Assembly: GCA_026707585.1 (NCBI GenBank) | Contig: JAPOWQ010000040.1 | Location: forward strand, 1-64,000 | DNA length: 64,000 nucleotides | Source of the DNA: Chloroflexota bacterium | GTDB taxonomy: Bacteria; Chloroflexota; UBA11872 | Reading direction: 5' to 3' | Part shown: positions 36,772 to 48,124 of the stretch, in pieces | Numbering within the stretch: position 1 is the first letter of the stretch | Layout of the letters: every line of letters starts with the position of its first letter | The notes under the pieces: generated by a model | Seen by the model: only the letters and a program-made list of their open reading frames with translations | What the model was told of the DNA's origin: nothing | The model's database searches: none | Position numbers and translations under genes: made by a program

Positions 36772-37932
36772 TCATTGCGCCGAGGGCCGGGCGGTGACGT
36801 AGTGGGCGCTGCCGAGGTTGCGGACGAGGCCTTTGACTTCCATGACGGCGAGCAGGGCGGAGATGCGGAAGGCGGGTAGGGCGGCGAGGCGCACGAGTTC
36901 GTCGATGTGCATGGGGTCGGTGGTGAGGTGGCGGAGGACGGCGCGTTCCTCGGTGGTGGGTTTGACGAGTTGGGGCATTTCCAACTGCTCGGGGCTGACG
37001 GCGATCTGCAGGGCTTCGAGGACGTCCTCGGCGGAGGTGACGGCGCGGGCCTCGCCGCGGTTGATGAGGCGGTTGGTTCCGCGGCTGGCGGCGGCGAAGA
37101 CGCTGCCGGGGACGGCCAGGATCTCGCGGTTCTGCTCAATGGCGTAGCGGGCGGTGTGGAGGGCGCCGCTTTCGAGCGGGGCTTCGATGACGATGCTGGC
37201 AAGGGACAGGCCGCTGATGATGCGGTTGCGCTGGGGAAAGTTCTCGGGGAGTCCGCGGACGCCGACGGGGTACTCGGTGACGATGGCGCCGCGCTCGAGG
37301 ATGCGAGGGACGAGACGGCGGTTGGCGCGGGGGTAGATTTCGTGCAGGCCGGTGCCCCAGACGGCGACGGTGGCGCCGCCGGCGTCGAGCACGGCGCGGT
37401 GGGCTTCGCCGTCGATGCCGGTGGCCATGCCGCTGACGACGCAAAGGCCGGCACGCGCCAGGGTGCCGGCCAGTTGGGCGGTGACCTGTTTGCCGTAGGC
37501 GGTCATGCGGCGGGTGCCGACGATGGCGACGGTGCGCTGGTAGTCGGCGCAGGCCAGGTCGCCCTTGACATAAATCAAGGGCGGCGGGTCGGGGATCTCG
37601 CGCAGCTGGGATGGGTAGGTCGGGTCGTGCCAGGCAATGGCGCGGCCCTCGTGTTTGGCTAGTTCTTCGAGGGCATAGTCGGCCGACTTCTCGCGGCGGG
37701 CGGTCTCGACCGCCTTAGCAACGGCCGGTGAGACGCCGGCGGCTTCAAGCCTGGCGGCGCTGGCGCTCCAGGCGACGCGCAGGTCGCCGAAGGCGCGGAT
37801 GAGGTTCCACAACGTGGCCGACCCAAGCCCGGGAACCGAACTCAGCGCCACCCACGCGGCCAGGTCTTCCGGCGTGCGCCCCACGGGCGCAGGTAAGCGG
37901 TCGGCCGCGAAATGGGATTCGCGGCTGGCCAT
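36772..37932 (-). CDS. dprA: DNA-processing protein DprA
   Basis: A 386-residue DprA/Smf protein that binds single-stranded DNA and loads RecA during natural transformation. A helix-hairpin-helix-type N-terminal region (WVALSSVPGLGSATLWNLIRAFGD) precedes the Rossmann core with VAIVGTRRMTAYGKQV, SGMATGIDGEAHRAVLDAGG and NRIISGLSLASIVIEA, and a winged-helix C-terminus about residues 310-380. It suggests a capacity for DNA uptake, although no com genes are present here. Confidence 0.92.
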   Translation of the reverse strand: MASRESHFAADRLPAPVGRTPEDLAAWVALSSVPGLGSATLWNLIRAFGDLRVAWSASAARLEAAGVSPAVAKAVETARREKSADYALEELAKHEGRAIAWHDPTYPSQLREIPDPPPLIYVKGDLACADYQRTVAIVGTRRMTAYGKQVTAQLAGTLARAGLCVVSGMATGIDGEAHRAVLDAGGATVAVWGTGLHEIYPRANRRLVPRILERGAIVTEYPVGVRGLPENFPQRNRIISGLSLASIVIEAPLESGALHTARYAIEQNREILAVPGSVFAAASRGTNRLINRGEARAVTSAEDVLEALQIAVSPEQLEMPQLVKPTTEERAVLRHLTTDPMHIDELVRLAALPAFRISALLAVMEVKGLVRNLGSAHYVTARPSAQ

Positions 37933-38021
37933 GGTGAGAGCTTAGCGTTGGAGGGGCGGAGAGTGCGGGTCTTCGCGACGGAGGGCACCGGCGGGTTGGC
38001 ATCGCTGGAGACTCGTCGCCC

Positions 38022-38055
38022 GATATCTTTCGATAGTATCCACGGTATCGATATC
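38022..38055. promoter_or_regulatory. AT-rich overlapping palindromes upstream of hicBA
   Basis: An AT-rich island in GC-rich surroundings holds GATATC (38022-38027), GATAGTATC (38032-38040), TATCGATA (38046-38053) and GATATC again (38050-38055). The HicB start lies 24 bases downstream. HicB proteins repress their own operons through palindromes, so this is a reasonable operator/promoter candidate. No binding specificity can be read. Confidence 0.4.
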
Positions 38056-38079
38056 AGAACTACCTTGAAGGGCGTTGTT

Positions 38080-38649
38080 GTGGACTTTCAGATCCGAGGC
38101 GCGTGGTACGCGATCGAGCCTCAGAACGTGATTCGCGCGACGCAGGACGTGCAGCCCAACGCGACGGACGGACGGAACAAGTACTTCGTCGAACTGCACG
38201 GACGCCAGTACCCGATCAAGCAGGTCGTCCAACTGGTGACAGGGCTGGCGTCACCGGTGTTCACGGCGCAGTACGCGTATCGAATCCTCAGCAGGCTGGG
38301 ATTTGAGATCTCAGAGCGTCCAGACGAACAAGCCTATGGCCGGCCGCTGCGTGAGCCTGACACGAGCCGGGGCCGTGGCGGCGATCCGGCGGAAGCGTCG
38401 GTAGCCGTGAACACGGCGGACGAAGACCGAGAGGTGCTGGAACTGCTGGTGGTCTTCACGACGGATGAGGACGGCTGGGTGGTCGCGAGCTGTCCGACGC
38501 TCCCGGGGTGTCACAGCCAGGGGCACACGCGGGAGGAGGCGCTTGCGAACATTCGCGAGGCCATCAGCGGATACCTGGCGAGTATGCGCGAGCACGGCGA
38601 TCCGATGCCGGACCCGTCGACGTTCCAGGTGCTTGAGGTGCCCGTGTAG
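38080..38649 (+). CDS. hicB: HicB-family antitoxin with extra N-terminal domain
   Basis: A 189-residue protein. The C-terminal about 75 residues are a HicB fold (LELLVVFTTDEDGWVVASCPTLPGCHSQGHTREEALANIREAI, key GC, G and EA positions), which neutralises HicA. The first about 80 residues form a separate unit: WYAIEPQNVIRATQ..., then NKYFVELHGRQYPIKQVVQL, F-TAQYAYRIL and LGF. That pattern resembles a small head domain found before some restriction nucleases; this link is my inference. AAGGGC lies before the GTG at 38080. Upstream in-frame codons reach into dprA and are rejected. Typical HicB is 60-150 residues, so this one is long. Confidence 0.7.
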   Translation: MDFQIRGAWYAIEPQNVIRATQDVQPNATDGRNKYFVELHGRQYPIKQVVQLVTGLASPVFTAQYAYRILSRLGFEISERPDEQAYGRPLREPDTSRGRGGDPAEASVAVNTADEDREVLELLVVFTTDEDGWVVASCPTLPGCHSQGHTREEALANIREAISGYLASMREHGDPMPDPSTFQVLEVPV

Positions 38650-39504: not shown

Positions 39505-40695
39505 TTAGCGGACTTTGCGGGCGAGGCGATTGACGCGTTCGAGGATTTCGTCGGGTTGGCCACGTAGGTCGAGGACGGCGATTTCGATGCACTTGCGGGC
39601 TTCACGGATTTCGTAGACGACCGGTTCGACTCGGTCCTGGTCGTCGTGGGCGTAGATGAGGAGGGCGCTGGGGAGTCCGGCGGCGAGGGCGTAGGCGAGG
39701 GCCTGGTAGATGTCGTGGTTTTGGGCGCCGTGGACGGTGGTGCGCTTGTATTTGGCGTCGCCGACGAAGACGCAGCGGTTGGCTTGCCACCAGGAGATGT
39801 CCGGCTTGAGGCGTAAGTCGCGGCCTTGATCCAGCCAGAGATCTCGGCCGCGGGCTTCCTGGGGAAACGTGTGTTCGGTCAGGTCCAGCGCTTCGCGGAG
39901 GGCGACGGCTACAAAGTCTTCGAAGACCTTGTTCATGTCGATCAGGAACGAGGCGGATTGGACCTTGCCGGCCGCCAGTTCGACGGCGCCCGACTGGAGG
40001 ATGAGCCGGGCCAGGGCCAGGGCGGGTTGGTAGTGGGCGTTGAGCGGGGTGACGGGAACTTCGGGAAGGTGGGTTGGCCGGTATTCAACTTTGGATACGT
40101 TGGCGAAAACGGCACGCATGGCACTCAGCAGCCGGCGGGTGTTGGGGGAGCGCTGGGGCAGCCAGGCCAGGCGCCTGACGGCGGCCTTGAGCAGGCGGTT
40201 AGGTTCGATGTCAGGCGTGAATTCGTCGTACCTGACCTCGATGGGGACGGCGATGCCGAAGCGCCGGCGCAGTTGTTCCTCGATGCGGATGCGTCCGCGG
40301 ACGACGTTGAGCGTTTCTTCGCGGGTTTGATAGCCCTGGAGGAGGCCGCGGCCGGTGGCCCGGCGGACGGCCTGGTGGAATAGCTGGACCATGGCTTCGA
40401 CCAGGTCGGCTGATCGATCTATGTCGGTGACTTCCGGCTTGAGCTGGAAGGCGCCGAGCGCGTAGGAGGCCAGAAATAGGACACGGTCGATGGGGAGTTT
40501 TGGCCTGATTTCGACGGTGAGGTCGGGGAGGCGGATGACGCCAACCTTGGAGTTGGGGCGCAGATTCCAGAGGCCGTCTGAGGATGCAGGAGAGACATCA
40601 ACCGATTCTGCGCTGCGCTGAAGGTAATGAAGCTGCCTGGACGTGAGCCTGACGTCTTCTTGCGTCTGGTGTTCAGCTAGTTGGAGACGCCGCAT
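39505..40695 (-). CDS. mcrC: McrC-type nuclease subunit of a 5-methylcytosine restriction system
   Basis: A 396-residue McrC-like protein. The N-terminal region (RLTSRQLHYLQRSAESVDVSPASSDGLWNLRPNSKVGVIRLPDLTVEIRPKLPIDRVLFLASYALG: key IRPKLPI near residue 75) is typical of McrC; the C-terminal PD-(D/E)xK nuclease core reads LRLKPDISW...CVFVGDAKYK (about residues 293-313), with the lysine intact. McrC supplies DNA cleavage when activated by McrB. Its ATG at 40695 overlaps the mcrB end by 23 bases. The longer upstream frame is a shadow of mcrB. Confidence 0.87.
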   Translation of the reverse strand: MRRLQLAEHQTQEDVRLTSRQLHYLQRSAESVDVSPASSDGLWNLRPNSKVGVIRLPDLTVEIRPKLPIDRVLFLASYALGAFQLKPEVTDIDRSADLVEAMVQLFHQAVRRATGRGLLQGYQTREETLNVVRGRIRIEEQLRRRFGIAVPIEVRYDEFTPDIEPNRLLKAAVRRLAWLPQRSPNTRRLLSAMRAVFANVSKVEYRPTHLPEVPVTPLNAHYQPALALARLILQSGAVELAAGKVQSASFLIDMNKVFEDFVAVALREALDLTEHTFPQEARGRDLWLDQGRDLRLKPDISWWQANRCVFVGDAKYKRTTVHGAQNHDIYQALAYALAAGLPSALLIYAHDDQDRVEPVVYEIREARKCIEIAVLDLRGQPDEILERVNRLARKVR

Positions 40696-43333
40696 CGCCG
40701 TCTTCGTTGGCAGCGGCATCGGCCGCTTGAATCTCGGCTCGGAGCTTGACGTATTCAAACTCCGCCAGGCGCTCCTCCCGGCCGAAGAGTTGCTCCTCGA
40801 TGTAGGGGAGGACCGAATAGTCCCAGATCCGCTCCACCCAATCCTCGTTGAGGTCTCTGCGCATGAAGTGGCTGGGGCCGATGGCCAGGTGGCGGTCGCG
40901 GAGTTTGCCGTTCGCCGCGTCCAGCAGCCTGACGACCCAAAGGAGGTCGGGCTTGTGTGCTTCAAGCCAGCGGCTCAGGAGACCATCCACCGGCGTTCTA
41001 TCAGGAAAGAATGGAACAAAGTGGAAGCGGCGACGCAGGGCGGCGTCCACCAGGGCGATGGAGCGGTCGGCGGTGTTCATTGTGGCGATGAACCAGAGGT
41101 TGTCTGGGAGGGAGAACTTCTTGTCGGAATACTGGAGGAAAATCGCGTGGTCTGGACCCCTGTATTCGAGTAGAAAGTAGAGTTCGCCAAAGACGCGGGC
41201 GACGTTGCCGCGATTGATTTCATCGATGACGAGTACGTGCTTTGCGTCAGGATTGTCGCGTGCCCTTTTGGCGACACGCTTGAGTGGCCCTTCGCGGAGT
41301 TGGAAGCCCGGCTGGCCTTTCTGGTCGGAGGGTCGGAAGCCTTCGACGAAGTCTTCGTAGGCGTAGGACGGATGGAACTGCACAAGGTCGGTGGAGCCTT
41401 CGGCGCCGGCGAAGTGGCGGGCGAGCTGCAGGGCGACGAAGGTCTTGCCGGTGCCGGGCGGGCCGTAGAACACGACCTGCTGCTTGTGTTCGATCAGCCG
41501 GTTGATGTCGCGAAGGTGACCGGCGTCCCAAAAGAGCCGAGTGGCGAGGTCGTTGAGCGTCTCCGGCGCGACGGTGATCGAGAAGGTCTGCTCGGCGGCG
41601 CGGCCGTCTTCGTCTGTTGCTGTCCAGGTATACGTTGCGGAAGACTGCGCCGCCGTCGGAGCGCCGCTCAGTTCACGCGTCGCGTCGTCAAGCTCCAGAC
41701 CATCCGGCGGCTCCGGCGTCAACGCGTAGGTCGATGCTCCGCTGCCGCCGCTGGCCTCAGGCAGATACAGGGTCGGGATGATGGAGTTCTGGGAGAGTGC
41801 CTGGTTCTCGATCGGCTCTTCGAACGTCGGCGGCGGTGGAGGGGGCGGAGCATCGGCCTCTCGGAAGCGTCGAAGGGCGTCGTACTCGAACTCTGGGAAA
41901 TCTGGGTGATCCTCGGTCGTCCAGTTGACGACAGACCAGAGCATCGACTGGGCATCCAAACGATCCCGCAGCTCAATCTTGCGCTTTCCTGCCTCGACTA
42001 GAATCCGGTCAAGGAAGGACAGGACGTGCTCATACACGACACTGTCCGATGCAGATTTATCAGGATAGGGGTATCCTGTCAGGTCATACCCGCGTTCAAA
42101 TGTAGTAGTTCCATACGGTGGGTACGTACGTGGATCTATAGCCATTGCCAAGAATGATGCAAGGGTTATCCGCGTACCCTTGCCGCTGGGAGAGTCTGCA
42201 GGAACTTGCCTTAGAAAATCCCCGATTGCTACAGACGCATTCTCTTTGCTGACCCAGTTGCTTCTGTCTCCCCACAGTGCGAACAGCGCTTCACGTGCTT
42301 CCGTATTGTTCTCGGAACACCATATGCTAAACCTAGATTGAGTGATGTAATAGACTAAATTGTTGTCCTTATGCCCAAATGCTTGATTTAGAACTGTCAG
42401 CCAGTCATCCGATCCACGCTCGATAGCAAATCGCGCATGCTCGAGGCTGGTTGCAATGTCGAGCTTATAGTTACGCTCCCACTTGTCGAAGTGTTGAAGC
42501 TTGACAAAGCGACTTCCCCAGCCGATGAATCTGTCCCATGCCGAAACGTCTGGCGACCAGGTGAACCTGATGTCATCTGAGTAGAAGTCGAAACCGTCCA
42601 TATACTGCTCGGCATGTCCGGTCAGGCGTCGCCGGATTTGGAGTAAGTCGCGGTCAATGTCGCCCGTTGGCGCTTCAAGGAGAGCTCCAAAGGAATTACG
42701 CAGACTCATCTTCTGGTTTTTGGATATGGTTGGCTCGAAAGTATCAGGATATGTGAGGTGCAGTATCGACTCTGTTTGCAAGCCTGCCTTTGGGACTACA
42801 ACTGCTTTGATCTCATCCATGAAACTCCAAGGATCACGGAGGGCTATCGACTGTCGTTCGTCAGGCAGTCTCTTCCAGTGCAAAACGAACTCGGCGATGA
42901 ATTCAATGTGCGCTGGTTTGGAGGCTCCAAAGGCAGGTCCAGGAAATAGGACACCGCTATCCAATACCGAGTCCAGGTGGCTCGGAACGGATATGTCCGG
43001 GTCACCCCAACTAAGAACAAGGCTGAGACGTTCTCGCTTGTTCCTGCCACCTATCGCAGGAGGAGCAGCAATCAGATAGTGGACATAGAGGATTTCGGCG
43101 GCAAGTTGGATTGTCTCGCGCGGGGCTCCGAGAAGTAGCGCCTTGAGCTTGTCAAAGAACCCGCTACCGGGCGCACTGGTTGGCACAACGAACCGCTGGT
43201 GGAAGTCGGTGAGGTTCTGAAGTGACCAGATCGGATTGCCGGGGGTGAAGAGGGAATCGTCCGTGCGTAGGGCTACGTCAACCCAGCGTTGGGCGGCGTC
43301 GTATACCGGCTCGCAACCCGCCCGTCTAGCCAT
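40673..43333 (-). CDS. mcrB: McrB-type AAA+ GTPase with an inserted Ig-like (He_PIG) domain
   Basis: An 886-residue motor subunit. Residues 1 to about 490 are a large region starting WSLQNLTDFHQRF...GSGFFDKLKALLLGA, found in other McrB-like proteins and presumably for target recognition. A proline run (about 494-503) leads to a putative-Ig domain (about 506-590): IPTLYLPEASGGSGAS, GLELDDATRELSGAPTAAQ, TYTWTATDEDG, TFSITV. The GTPase follows: Walker A GPPGTGKTF (about 623), Walker B VLVIDEINRG (about 699) and the McrB loop TMNTADRS. Ig domains of this type normally occur in surface proteins. ATG 43333 is used; ATG 43363 adds ten residues. The 42000-43200 stretch is visibly richer in A and T than its surroundings. 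Confidence 0.85.
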   Translation of the reverse strand: MARRAGCEPVYDAAQRWVDVALRTDDSLFTPGNPIWSLQNLTDFHQRFVVPTSAPGSGFFDKLKALLLGAPRETIQLAAEILYVHYLIAAPPAIGGRNKRERLSLVLSWGDPDISVPSHLDSVLDSGVLFPGPAFGASKPAHIEFIAEFVLHWKRLPDERQSIALRDPWSFMDEIKAVVVPKAGLQTESILHLTYPDTFEPTISKNQKMSLRNSFGALLEAPTGDIDRDLLQIRRRLTGHAEQYMDGFDFYSDDIRFTWSPDVSAWDRFIGWGSRFVKLQHFDKWERNYKLDIATSLEHARFAIERGSDDWLTVLNQAFGHKDNNLVYYITQSRFSIWCSENNTEAREALFALWGDRSNWVSKENASVAIGDFLRQVPADSPSGKGTRITLASFLAMAIDPRTYPPYGTTTFERGYDLTGYPYPDKSASDSVVYEHVLSFLDRILVEAGKRKIELRDRLDAQSMLWSVVNWTTEDHPDFPEFEYDALRRFREADAPPPPPPPTFEEPIENQALSQNSIIPTLYLPEASGGSGASTYALTPEPPDGLELDDATRELSGAPTAAQSSATYTWTATDEDGRAAEQTFSITVAPETLNDLATRLFWDAGHLRDINRLIEHKQQVVFYGPPGTGKTFVALQLARHFAGAEGSTDLVQFHPSYAYEDFVEGFRPSDQKGQPGFQLREGPLKRVAKRARDNPDAKHVLVIDEINRGNVARVFGELYFLLEYRGPDHAIFLQYSDKKFSLPDNLWFIATMNTADRSIALVDAALRRRFHFVPFFPDRTPVDGLLSRWLEAHKPDLLWVVRLLDAANGKLRDRHLAIGPSHFMRRDLNEDWVERIWDYSVLPYIEEQLFGREERLAEFEYVKLRAEIQAADAAANEDGDAASPTS

Positions 43334-46489: not shown

Positions 46490-46576
46490 TGCCTGGCGAA
46501 GCGCCAGGGGGCGGAAGGTCGGTCGGTTCCGCGCTTGGGTGCGCGGAAGAGGGGCGCTTCGCGAAGCGCCCCTACG
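46490..46576. repeat. REP-type palindromes, left flank of rayT
   Basis: A 44-base unit (46533-46576) begins GCTTGGGTGCGCGGAAG and contains the perfect palindrome GGGGCGCTTCGCGAAGCGCCCC ending in CTACG. A second palindrome, CCTGGCG AAG CGCCAGG, sits at 46490-46506. A near-identical 43-base copy in the same orientation lies on the other side of the transposase gene (47276-47318). The right end overlaps the rayT stop codon. Confidence 0.7.
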
Positions 46577-47201
46577 ATGAAGCGCCCCGACGAGGGATCT
46601 TGGAAGTCGATGGGTTCTCTTGGTCCGAATCCCATGCAAGTGGGTTGTTCACGATGTATTCGCGGATCGAGCCGAGTTCTCGTTCATTGCGAATTACGCG
46701 TTCATAAAAGTTGCGTTGCCAGATCACCCGACCGGCCGTTGCTTGAGCCAGGTTTGCTCGTCCTGTTCCGACCGTCTTGAACGCGCCGACCAGCTCACCC
46801 AACGGCTTCCGTCGCGCTGCGGGCGCGGCTCTTGAATGGTGATGACCAGCGGATCGTTCAGTCGCAGGACCGAAGCCTGACTCAGCGAATTCGGTGAGGA
46901 CTATGATTCCATGAAGGTGATTCGGCATGACTACGTACTCGTCCAGCTCCACATATGGATACCTTTCACCTAGCCACTCCCACACCTCCACCATCAACTT
47001 ACCAAGGGTGTTTAGCTGAACTTCCTCGTCCCGGACGTTGCCGAACAGGCAGAGCTTGCGTCGGGTGACGATGGTCACGAAGTACGCGCCGGCCTGGGAA
47101 TAATCATAGCCCTGCAAGCGGATTGATCGACGGCGGCGAGGGCGACCGAGATCATCAGGATGAATTCTTCCCCGTTGTGATTTCGGTTTCTCGCTACGCA
47201 T
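46572..47201 (-). CDS. rayT: REP-associated tyrosine transposase (RayT / Y1_Tnp family)
   Basis: A 209-residue single-strand transposase of the IS200/IS605 Y1 relatives. AGAYFVTIVTRRKLCLFG opens the core, VELDEYVVMPNHLHGIIVL has the HUH-type MPNHLH motif, and IWQRNFYERVIRNERELGSIREYIVNNPL carries the catalytic Tyr and the C-terminal family signature. ATG 47201 starts the homologous region; the frame is open upstream but reads through the flanking repeat. REP elements flank it, as expected of a domesticated REP-spreading transposase. Confidence 0.85.
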   Translation of the reverse strand: MRSEKPKSQRGRIHPDDLGRPRRRRSIRLQGYDYSQAGAYFVTIVTRRKLCLFGNVRDEEVQLNTLGKLMVEVWEWLGERYPYVELDEYVVMPNHLHGIIVLTEFAESGFGPATERSAGHHHSRAAPAARRKPLGELVGAFKTVGTGRANLAQATAGRVIWQRNFYERVIRNERELGSIREYIVNNPLAWDSDQENPSTSKIPRRGASS

Positions 47202-47275
47202 TGTCTTGCGGCTGTGGGTCCAGCCGACTGAGATAGTGCATGCGGTTTGGGCGGGGGAAGCGGCGAGTCCGGCGT

Positions 47276-47318
47276 GCTTGGGTGCGCGGAAGAGGGCGCT
47301 TCGCGAAGCGCCCCTACG
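47276..47318. repeat. REP-type palindrome, right flank of rayT
   Basis: A 43-base copy of the 46533-46576 unit, same orientation, differing by one missing G before GCGCTTCGCGAAGCGC. A partial palindrome GACGCTTCGCGAGGCGCCC follows at about 47327-47345, near the end of the next gene. Confidence 0.7.
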
Positions 47319-47353
47319 GGAGGGGGATGACGCTTCGCGAGGCGCCCAGGCGT

Positions 47354-48124
47354 CTAGTGGGAGGCCTCGGCGACGGGGACGCCTTGGAGGAGGCCGGCCT
47401 GGTGCATTTTTTCCCAGGCGGTGAGGAAGGTGGCGTTCCATTCGTCGGTGAGGGGGTTGTGGAGCATGTCGCGGAAGACTTCCCAGAAGACGATGATGCC
47501 GTCAGCGCCGGCCTGGAGGGCGGCGTTGGCGACGTCGACCGAGCGCACCAGGGCGGCGGTGATGTAGGGCCGCTGTTCCCAGCCGGCGAACATGTCGGCG
47601 CACTCGCGCACGTGCCACACCGGGTCCACGCCGACGCCCTTGTACGGTTCGCAGAAGGGCAGGATGTGGGTGGCGCCGGCCTGGGCCACCACGGCGGCCT
47701 GGGTGAGGTTGAAGGTGGTGGTGCAGAAGGTTTCCACGCCCTCGGCGGCCAGGGTCGAAAAGGCTTCGAGGCCCTGGGTGGCGCAGGGGATCTTGATGAT
47801 GATCTGGTCGGACATCTTGGTGAAGACGTGGGCGACGTCCAGGAGTTCGGCCGTGGTGTGGCCGTCGATCTCGACCACGACCTGCTTATCGGTGATGTCG
47901 AGGTAGCGGCGGACGACCTCCGTCAATTGCCCGTACTTCTGGGTCATGTCGTCCAGGACGACGGTATTGGTGACGATGCCGTAGCCACCGCGGGGCAGCC
48001 AGACCTTCAGGTCTTCAGGGTCGCCGGCCAGCCAGATGGCCGGGCCGCGTTCGGTGAGTCGAGCCTGGGTAACCGGGCCCACGTCGGTCTCGACGCCGTC
48101 AGCCGTGATTGTCATGCCAGCCAT
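47354..48124 (-). CDS. Transaldolase-family protein
   Basis: A 256-residue TIM barrel like transaldolase / fructose-6-phosphate aldolase. The Schiff-base Lys is in QIIIKIPCATQGLEAF (about residue 103); VNTTTFNLTQAA-like FCTTTFNLTQAAVVAQAGATHILPF follows, and the N-terminal GGYGIVTNTVV replaces the usual TNP motif. It may be an aldolase for sugar or sugar-acid carbon skeletons. Its start shares one base with the stop of the VOC gene upstream, so the two are one operon. Confidence 0.75.
   Translation of the reverse strand: MAGMTITADGVETDVGPVTQARLTERGPAIWLAGDPEDLKVWLPRGGYGIVTNTVVLDDMTQKYGQLTEVVRRYLDITDKQVVVEIDGHTTAELLDVAHVFTKMSDQIIIKIPCATQGLEAFSTLAAEGVETFCTTTFNLTQAAVVAQAGATHILPFCEPYKGVGVDPVWHVRECADMFAGWEQRPYITAALVRSVDVANAALQAGADGIIVFWEVFRDMLHNPLTDEWNATFLTAWEKMHQAGLLQGVPVAEASH

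Follow-up and report, generated by a model that had tools for sequence, protein, structure and literature searches.

He_PIG-type Ig-like domains are normally found on cell-surface proteins, and the question raised by the locus described here is how such a domain came to lie in front of the motor of a McrB-type GTPase and what it does there. The locus is part of a 64,000-nucleotide stretch of Chloroflexota DNA (the window; its genome is referred to as G000), for which an initial annotation, made from the letters alone, had proposed that the open reading frame at 40673-43333 encodes such a protein. If this reading is right, the Ig-carrying McrB represents a domain swap between compartments, in which a surface-protein Ig-like module was recruited to a cytoplasmic defence motor.

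The mcrB gene (40673..43333 on the minus strand including the stop codon, 886 aa) runs from an ATG at 43333 to a TGA at 40675-40673, with zero internal stops; its strand had previously been left unstated. Its assignment as a McrB-type GTPase was borne out by an AAA_5 match (Pfam, residues 620-770, 68 bits) as well as by matches of the motor to E. coli McrB in sequence (E 6e-41) and, using the structure model, to entry 6hz4 (Foldseek, E 1.5e-14). Pfam, McrB match, fold and motifs together place the AAA+ GTPase motor at residues 593-860 (40754..41557, minus strand), and all motifs named beforehand were located intact, i.e. Walker A GPPGTGKT at 624-631, Walker B VIDEINRG at 702-709 and MNTADRS at 752-758. 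Overlapping the 3' end of mcrB is mcrC (39505..40719, minus strand; 404 aa from the ATG at 40719, with a second ATG at 40695), the product of which matches PF10117 with 208 bits and contains KPD and DAK nuclease motifs. With GTPase and nuclease signatures both intact, the locus combines a McrB-type AAA+ protein bearing the Nx(xx)D signature (here MNTADRS, hence NxxD) with an adjacent McrC bearing PD-(D/E)xK nuclease motifs, encoded by overlapping genes. These sequence features identify it as McrBC-type (Type IV) restriction, which would cleave modified DNA with GTP and presumably be active in restriction.

In the surroundings, a HicB-like antitoxin frame (37.8 bits; window 37912-38649, plus strand) lies between dprA and mcrC, and a frame at 46572-47441 (minus strand), located in a GC dip, resembles a small REP-type transposase (QGYDYSQAGAYFVTIVTRR), for which Pfam returned nothing at E 0.001. 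Rfam families were not found near the mcrBC locus, and no plasmid or phage record was found in which one place covers 80% of the McrB protein. In three genomes with matching flanks (G000, G011 and G006), dprA and secDF are found near the McrBC system, with proteins about 86-95% identical.

The Ig-like domain itself occupies residues 508-591 (41561..41812, minus strand), as delineated by Pfam, AlphaFold and Foldseek. Both checks suggested for it, a Pfam search and a structure prediction, gave a significant Ig-type match and a beta-sandwich: He_PIG (PF05345) matches residues 511-589 with an E of 1.3e-9 and 38.8 bits against a curated Pfam cut-off of 24, and a He_PIG search of the domain's own genome scores it at 43.2 bits, likewise above the cut-off. 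The AlphaFold2 model of McrB (mean pLDDT 87.7, pTM 0.59) displays a helical N-terminal region, an AAA+ fold and, for the Ig, a seven-stranded beta-sandwich (strands 511-514, 519-523, 535-539, 546-549, 554-557, 563-573 and 579-589), with a pLDDT of 54-87 per 10-residue block over residues 501-590. The domain is preceded by a proline-rich linker of low model confidence (residues 493-503; 41825..41857, minus strand), the pLDDT falling below 50 along the proline tether at 495-505, while its last strand (579-589) leads to helix 593-600 of the motor with three residues between. Foldseek retrieved cadherin-like modules of SraP (4m02: E 6e-5, 85 columns, rmsd 1.9 A), and among PDB entries a cadherin-like stem module of this protein ranks first for the Ig, in structure and in sequence alike. 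Two of the three aligned SraP-type calcium ligands are changed (D601 to S528 and N602 to G529), D645 being kept as D574; with the ligands mostly missing, a calcium-binding adhesion role is unsupported.

How widely the layout occurs was examined in a set of 61 related genomes, thirteen of which belong to the genus of the window. A full-length Ig-carrying McrB is present in six of these thirteen, namely in the window's own genome and in five others at 84, 74, 63, 56 and 56% identity, the Ig domains of the latter being 42-75% identical and having no stops and no frameshifts. The identical layout in five further genomes rules out an assembly chimera, which the initial annotation had named as a possible objection. 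Orthologues that share the N-terminal region and the motor but lack the Ig occur in one further genome of the genus (G002), in its sister genus and elsewhere in the order; according to the alignment, a short proline-rich linker of about 4-14 residues takes the place of the roughly 90 residues found in Ig members, and the Ig is thus a clean insertion into this linker, which is variable across the family and contains proline runs of many lengths. Among 400 Chloroflexota genomes, the Ig region aligned in those six genomes only, and it aligned in none of 396 genomes from the phylum to which G400 belongs (the genome of locus L069, titled Acidimicrobiia). A scan of 84,980 species with one genome each, which was keyed on the N-terminal modules rather than on the Ig so that He_PIG on McrBs of other families in unsampled phyla is possible, found 79 loci with the N-terminal region and the Ig only in the five other genus members. 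The statement that the layout is unusual holds as well: none of the other McrBs examined carries He_PIG, and no such protein was found in the literature searched, an absence that is not proof as subscription papers lay mostly outside the search.

Regarding the source of the domain, the window's genome contains four He_PIG matches, the other three being located in frames of 846, 3280 and 4361 aa, the first of which is metalloprotease-like, contains an HExxH motif and has an N-terminus that looks like a signal. In a tree of 50 domains, those of the six McrBs group together as a single clade with modest support (UFBoot 67), and the nearest non-McrB domains, 47-52% identical, belong to secreted or surface-located proteins of this genus. 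Both observations fit a single event, and the genus probably acquired the Ig once, from He_PIG-rich surface proteins of its own lineage. For sponge symbionts, an enrichment of cadherin-domain genes and of restriction-modification genes has been reported (PMC8163846).

Upstream of the Ig, about 470 residues, which the initial annotation had described only as a large N-terminal region, form an all-helical region (model pLDDT 92.8) consisting of two putative recognition modules, N1 (residues 30-255; 42569..43246, minus strand) and N2 (residues 262-470; 41924..42550, minus strand). Pfam gave no match over the N-terminal 490 aa, including none to the methylcytosine-binding DUF3578 of the E. coli type, PADLOC gave none for the N-terminal region, and comparison of the N1 and N2 folds with PDB and viral structures returned nothing at E <= 0.001. 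A duplicated pair they are apparently not, the hhalign probability of 0.8% being not significant. In other genomes the halves are found apart, as N1 plus motor (L090 and L100, for example) or N2 plus motor (L107, L120), or in reversed order with N2 before N1 (L130, L132, L134), and are therefore separate modules. As analogy with other McrBs and their position suggest, N1 and N2 would recognize the target; the N1/N2 region is at least a more distinctive recognition candidate than the Ig, and its modules are candidates for new domain families that read DNA or its modifications.

Both modules (window 41894-43333, minus strand; L087, L090, L100, L107, L120, L130) occur in many McrBs of several bacterial phyla, varying in order and combination, and also on Streptomyces and Rhodococcus plasmids. 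One Dehalococcoidia genome has three consecutive mcrB-like genes (L100:5962-11523; N1-motor, N1-motor, N2-motor), and L120 has two. The slot between N-modules and motor is occupied by an EVE domain (PF01878) in L068:1507-2571 (34 bits) and L117:564-1565 (46 bits), and by other unmatched domains of about 175-230 aa in several actinobacterial members. In the sister genus, one McrB without the Ig has another kind of insert, about 110 aa long, within its N-terminal region (L044:8760-9149; no Pfam match), and in Herpetosiphon and relatives (L089, L092, L098, L102, L109) N1 is joined to a divergent AAA motor with a weak score against the McrB motor profile.

The N-terminal region also has a history distinct from that of the motor. 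Between the mcrB genes of G000 and G012, DNA identity is 92% up to residue 37, this conserved 5' end (residues 1-36; 43226..43333, minus strand) having a GC3 of 72%, then about 53-55% up to residue 574 and 94% beyond. The crossover was placed at residues 574-579 (41597..41614, minus strand; identity from 0.53 to 0.94, dlnL 198), which form the loop before the last Ig strand, and a second one, between G010 and G006, at 567-584, with the cassette of G010 resembling that of the window. Both well-resolved crossovers thus lie in or near this loop, at the last hairpin of the Ig. The G006 and G000 cassettes are only 41-52% identical, despite matching dprA/secDF flanks. An AU test rejected both swaps of trees, that of the cassette tree onto the motor data with p 2e-56 and that of the motor tree onto the cassette data with p 3e-10. 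Across all six genes, GC3 by block amounts to 49-62% in the cassette; the motor has 76-80%, the stretch of the first 36 codons 64-72% and the Ig 61-95%, so that the cassette looks imported. Judged from these sequence comparisons, N1 and N2 constitute a low-GC cassette that in this genus is replaced as one unit with respect to the motor, which may be how such systems renew their target range. A causal role of the Ig in this exchange is weakened, however, since Ig-less pairs switch between motor and cassette at about the same border (residues 499-634). Two Ig-carrying pairs involving G004 place the switch at 583-602, where the Ig ends or beyond. The exchange is therefore a family trait that does not require the Ig, which just happens to hold the border in this genus.

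Taken together, we consider it on balance probable that the Ig, captured from surface proteins, serves as a motor-docked structural adaptor or stalk underneath an exchangeable N1+N2 recognition cassette, which is held on a proline tether. The parts of McrB follow one another as cassette, proline tether, He_PIG Ig and GTPase motor. With its last strand anchored where the AAA+ domain begins, the Ig would form, in six copies, short stalks on the hexamer, as extrapolated from a single-chain model (pTM 0.59), while the flexible tether on the opposite side would carry the recognition cassette. Cassettes are replaced by recombination, bounded on one side by the conserved 5' end (near residue 37) and on the other by the conserved last hairpin of the Ig or the point where the motor begins. 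A cassette that has bound its target would deliver DNA to the ring, where McrC would cut. A rigid element is conceivable here, as the cadherin-like module of SraP is part of a relatively rigid stem (PMC4047093). Moreover, the elements that contact guanine in known McrBs lie shortly before the AAA+ core (PMC7680126), so that an Ig joined at this point may affect nucleotide use.

The initial annotation had left two functions to choose from, a spacer setting ring geometry or a module binding a target or partner. The former is better supported by the position in the linker, the direct run into the AAA helix, the absence from orthologues and the exchange taking place above the domain. Direct contact of the Ig with modified DNA or a phage protein, as an additional binding module, is less well supported and seems unlikely, but it is kept in consideration by the EVE domain, which takes up the same slot in the related McrBs L068 and L117. 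Selection bears on this idea as well: for the Ig, the three closest pairs give a dN/dS of 0.41-0.46 versus 0.18-0.27 for N1, N2 and the motor, i.e. the Ig is, by this measure, under constraint that is weaker than that on the remaining domains. The higher dN/dS speaks for a binding role; however, the residues invariant among the six domains follow the He_PIG family pattern with no obvious binding motif, the composition of the Ig is like that of the motor and unlike that of the cassette, and we know of no He_PIG domain that has been shown to bind nucleic acid. In favor of Ig-mediated recognition, predicted IG-like domains in the BREX protein PglZ have been proposed as invader sensors (PMC12839542).

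An extension of the adaptor reading, which we regard as rather doubtful, would make He_PIG a universal dock that accepts new cassettes by recombination within the conserved Ig hairpin, so that a modification-dependent system would change its specificity by an HsdS-like swap using two undescribed families of helical modules. Conversely, sister-genus McrBs without Ig show that the domain is dispensable for the basic architecture, which, like the higher dN/dS of the Ig, speaks against an adaptor and allows for a neutral passenger, that is, a piece of a surface protein that was copied into a tolerant linker and persists for no other reason than that it folds. The variability of this linker and a dN/dS that exceeds, in the closest pairs, that of every other folded domain agree with this explanation, but we consider it quite improbable given that the Ig is kept in six of six members at 42-75% domain identity, without stops or frameshifts and with dN/dS < 1. 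Least likely of all is an oligomerization collar of six copies touching above the ring and stabilizing the hexamer or its asymmetry, as orthologous motors do without an Ig, even though few residues separate Ig and motor, a construct of two SraP cadherin-like modules dimerizes in solution (PMC4047093) and a domain joined near the guanine-contacting elements could influence them (PMC7680126). Paired orthologues with and without Ig make the role of the domain directly testable.

Several known systems resemble the adaptor with its exchangeable cassette in part. Type I HsdS subunits likewise have an exchangeable target-recognition part between conserved segments; this is a likeness in working only and not one of homology, and a methyltransferase partner was not identified here. 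The SraP cadherin-like modules (4m00, 4m02, 4m03), the best match of the Ig, form a relatively rigid stem carrying a binding head, but are extracellular and calcium-binding, whereas the McrB Ig is without two of the three aligned ligands. With the McrBC systems of E. coli (6hz4, 6ut6) and T. gammatolerans (6ut5), the locus shares the NTAD (NxxD) signature, the Walker motifs, a PF10117 McrC and a modular N-terminus; unlike in these McrBs, the N-terminus consists of the helical modules N1 and N2 instead of DUF3578 or YTH, and He_PIG precedes the motor. The lack of any Pfam match in the N-terminal region excludes the DUF3578 type. EVE-McrB proteins (PMC7641849; L068, L117) also have an extra domain between N-modules and motor, EVE being a modified-base reader, a role not known for He_PIG. 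Finally, a census of McrBC systems describes Ig-like beta-sandwiches in the McrC of CoCoNuTs and their relatives (PMC11090510). While an Ig-like fold is thus common to both, CoCoNuTs are defined by an NxD-type McrB (PMC11090510), and the NTAD (NxxD) signature rules out that the present system is one of them: there, the Ig is found at the N-terminus of McrC, whereas here a He_PIG domain is part of McrB itself.
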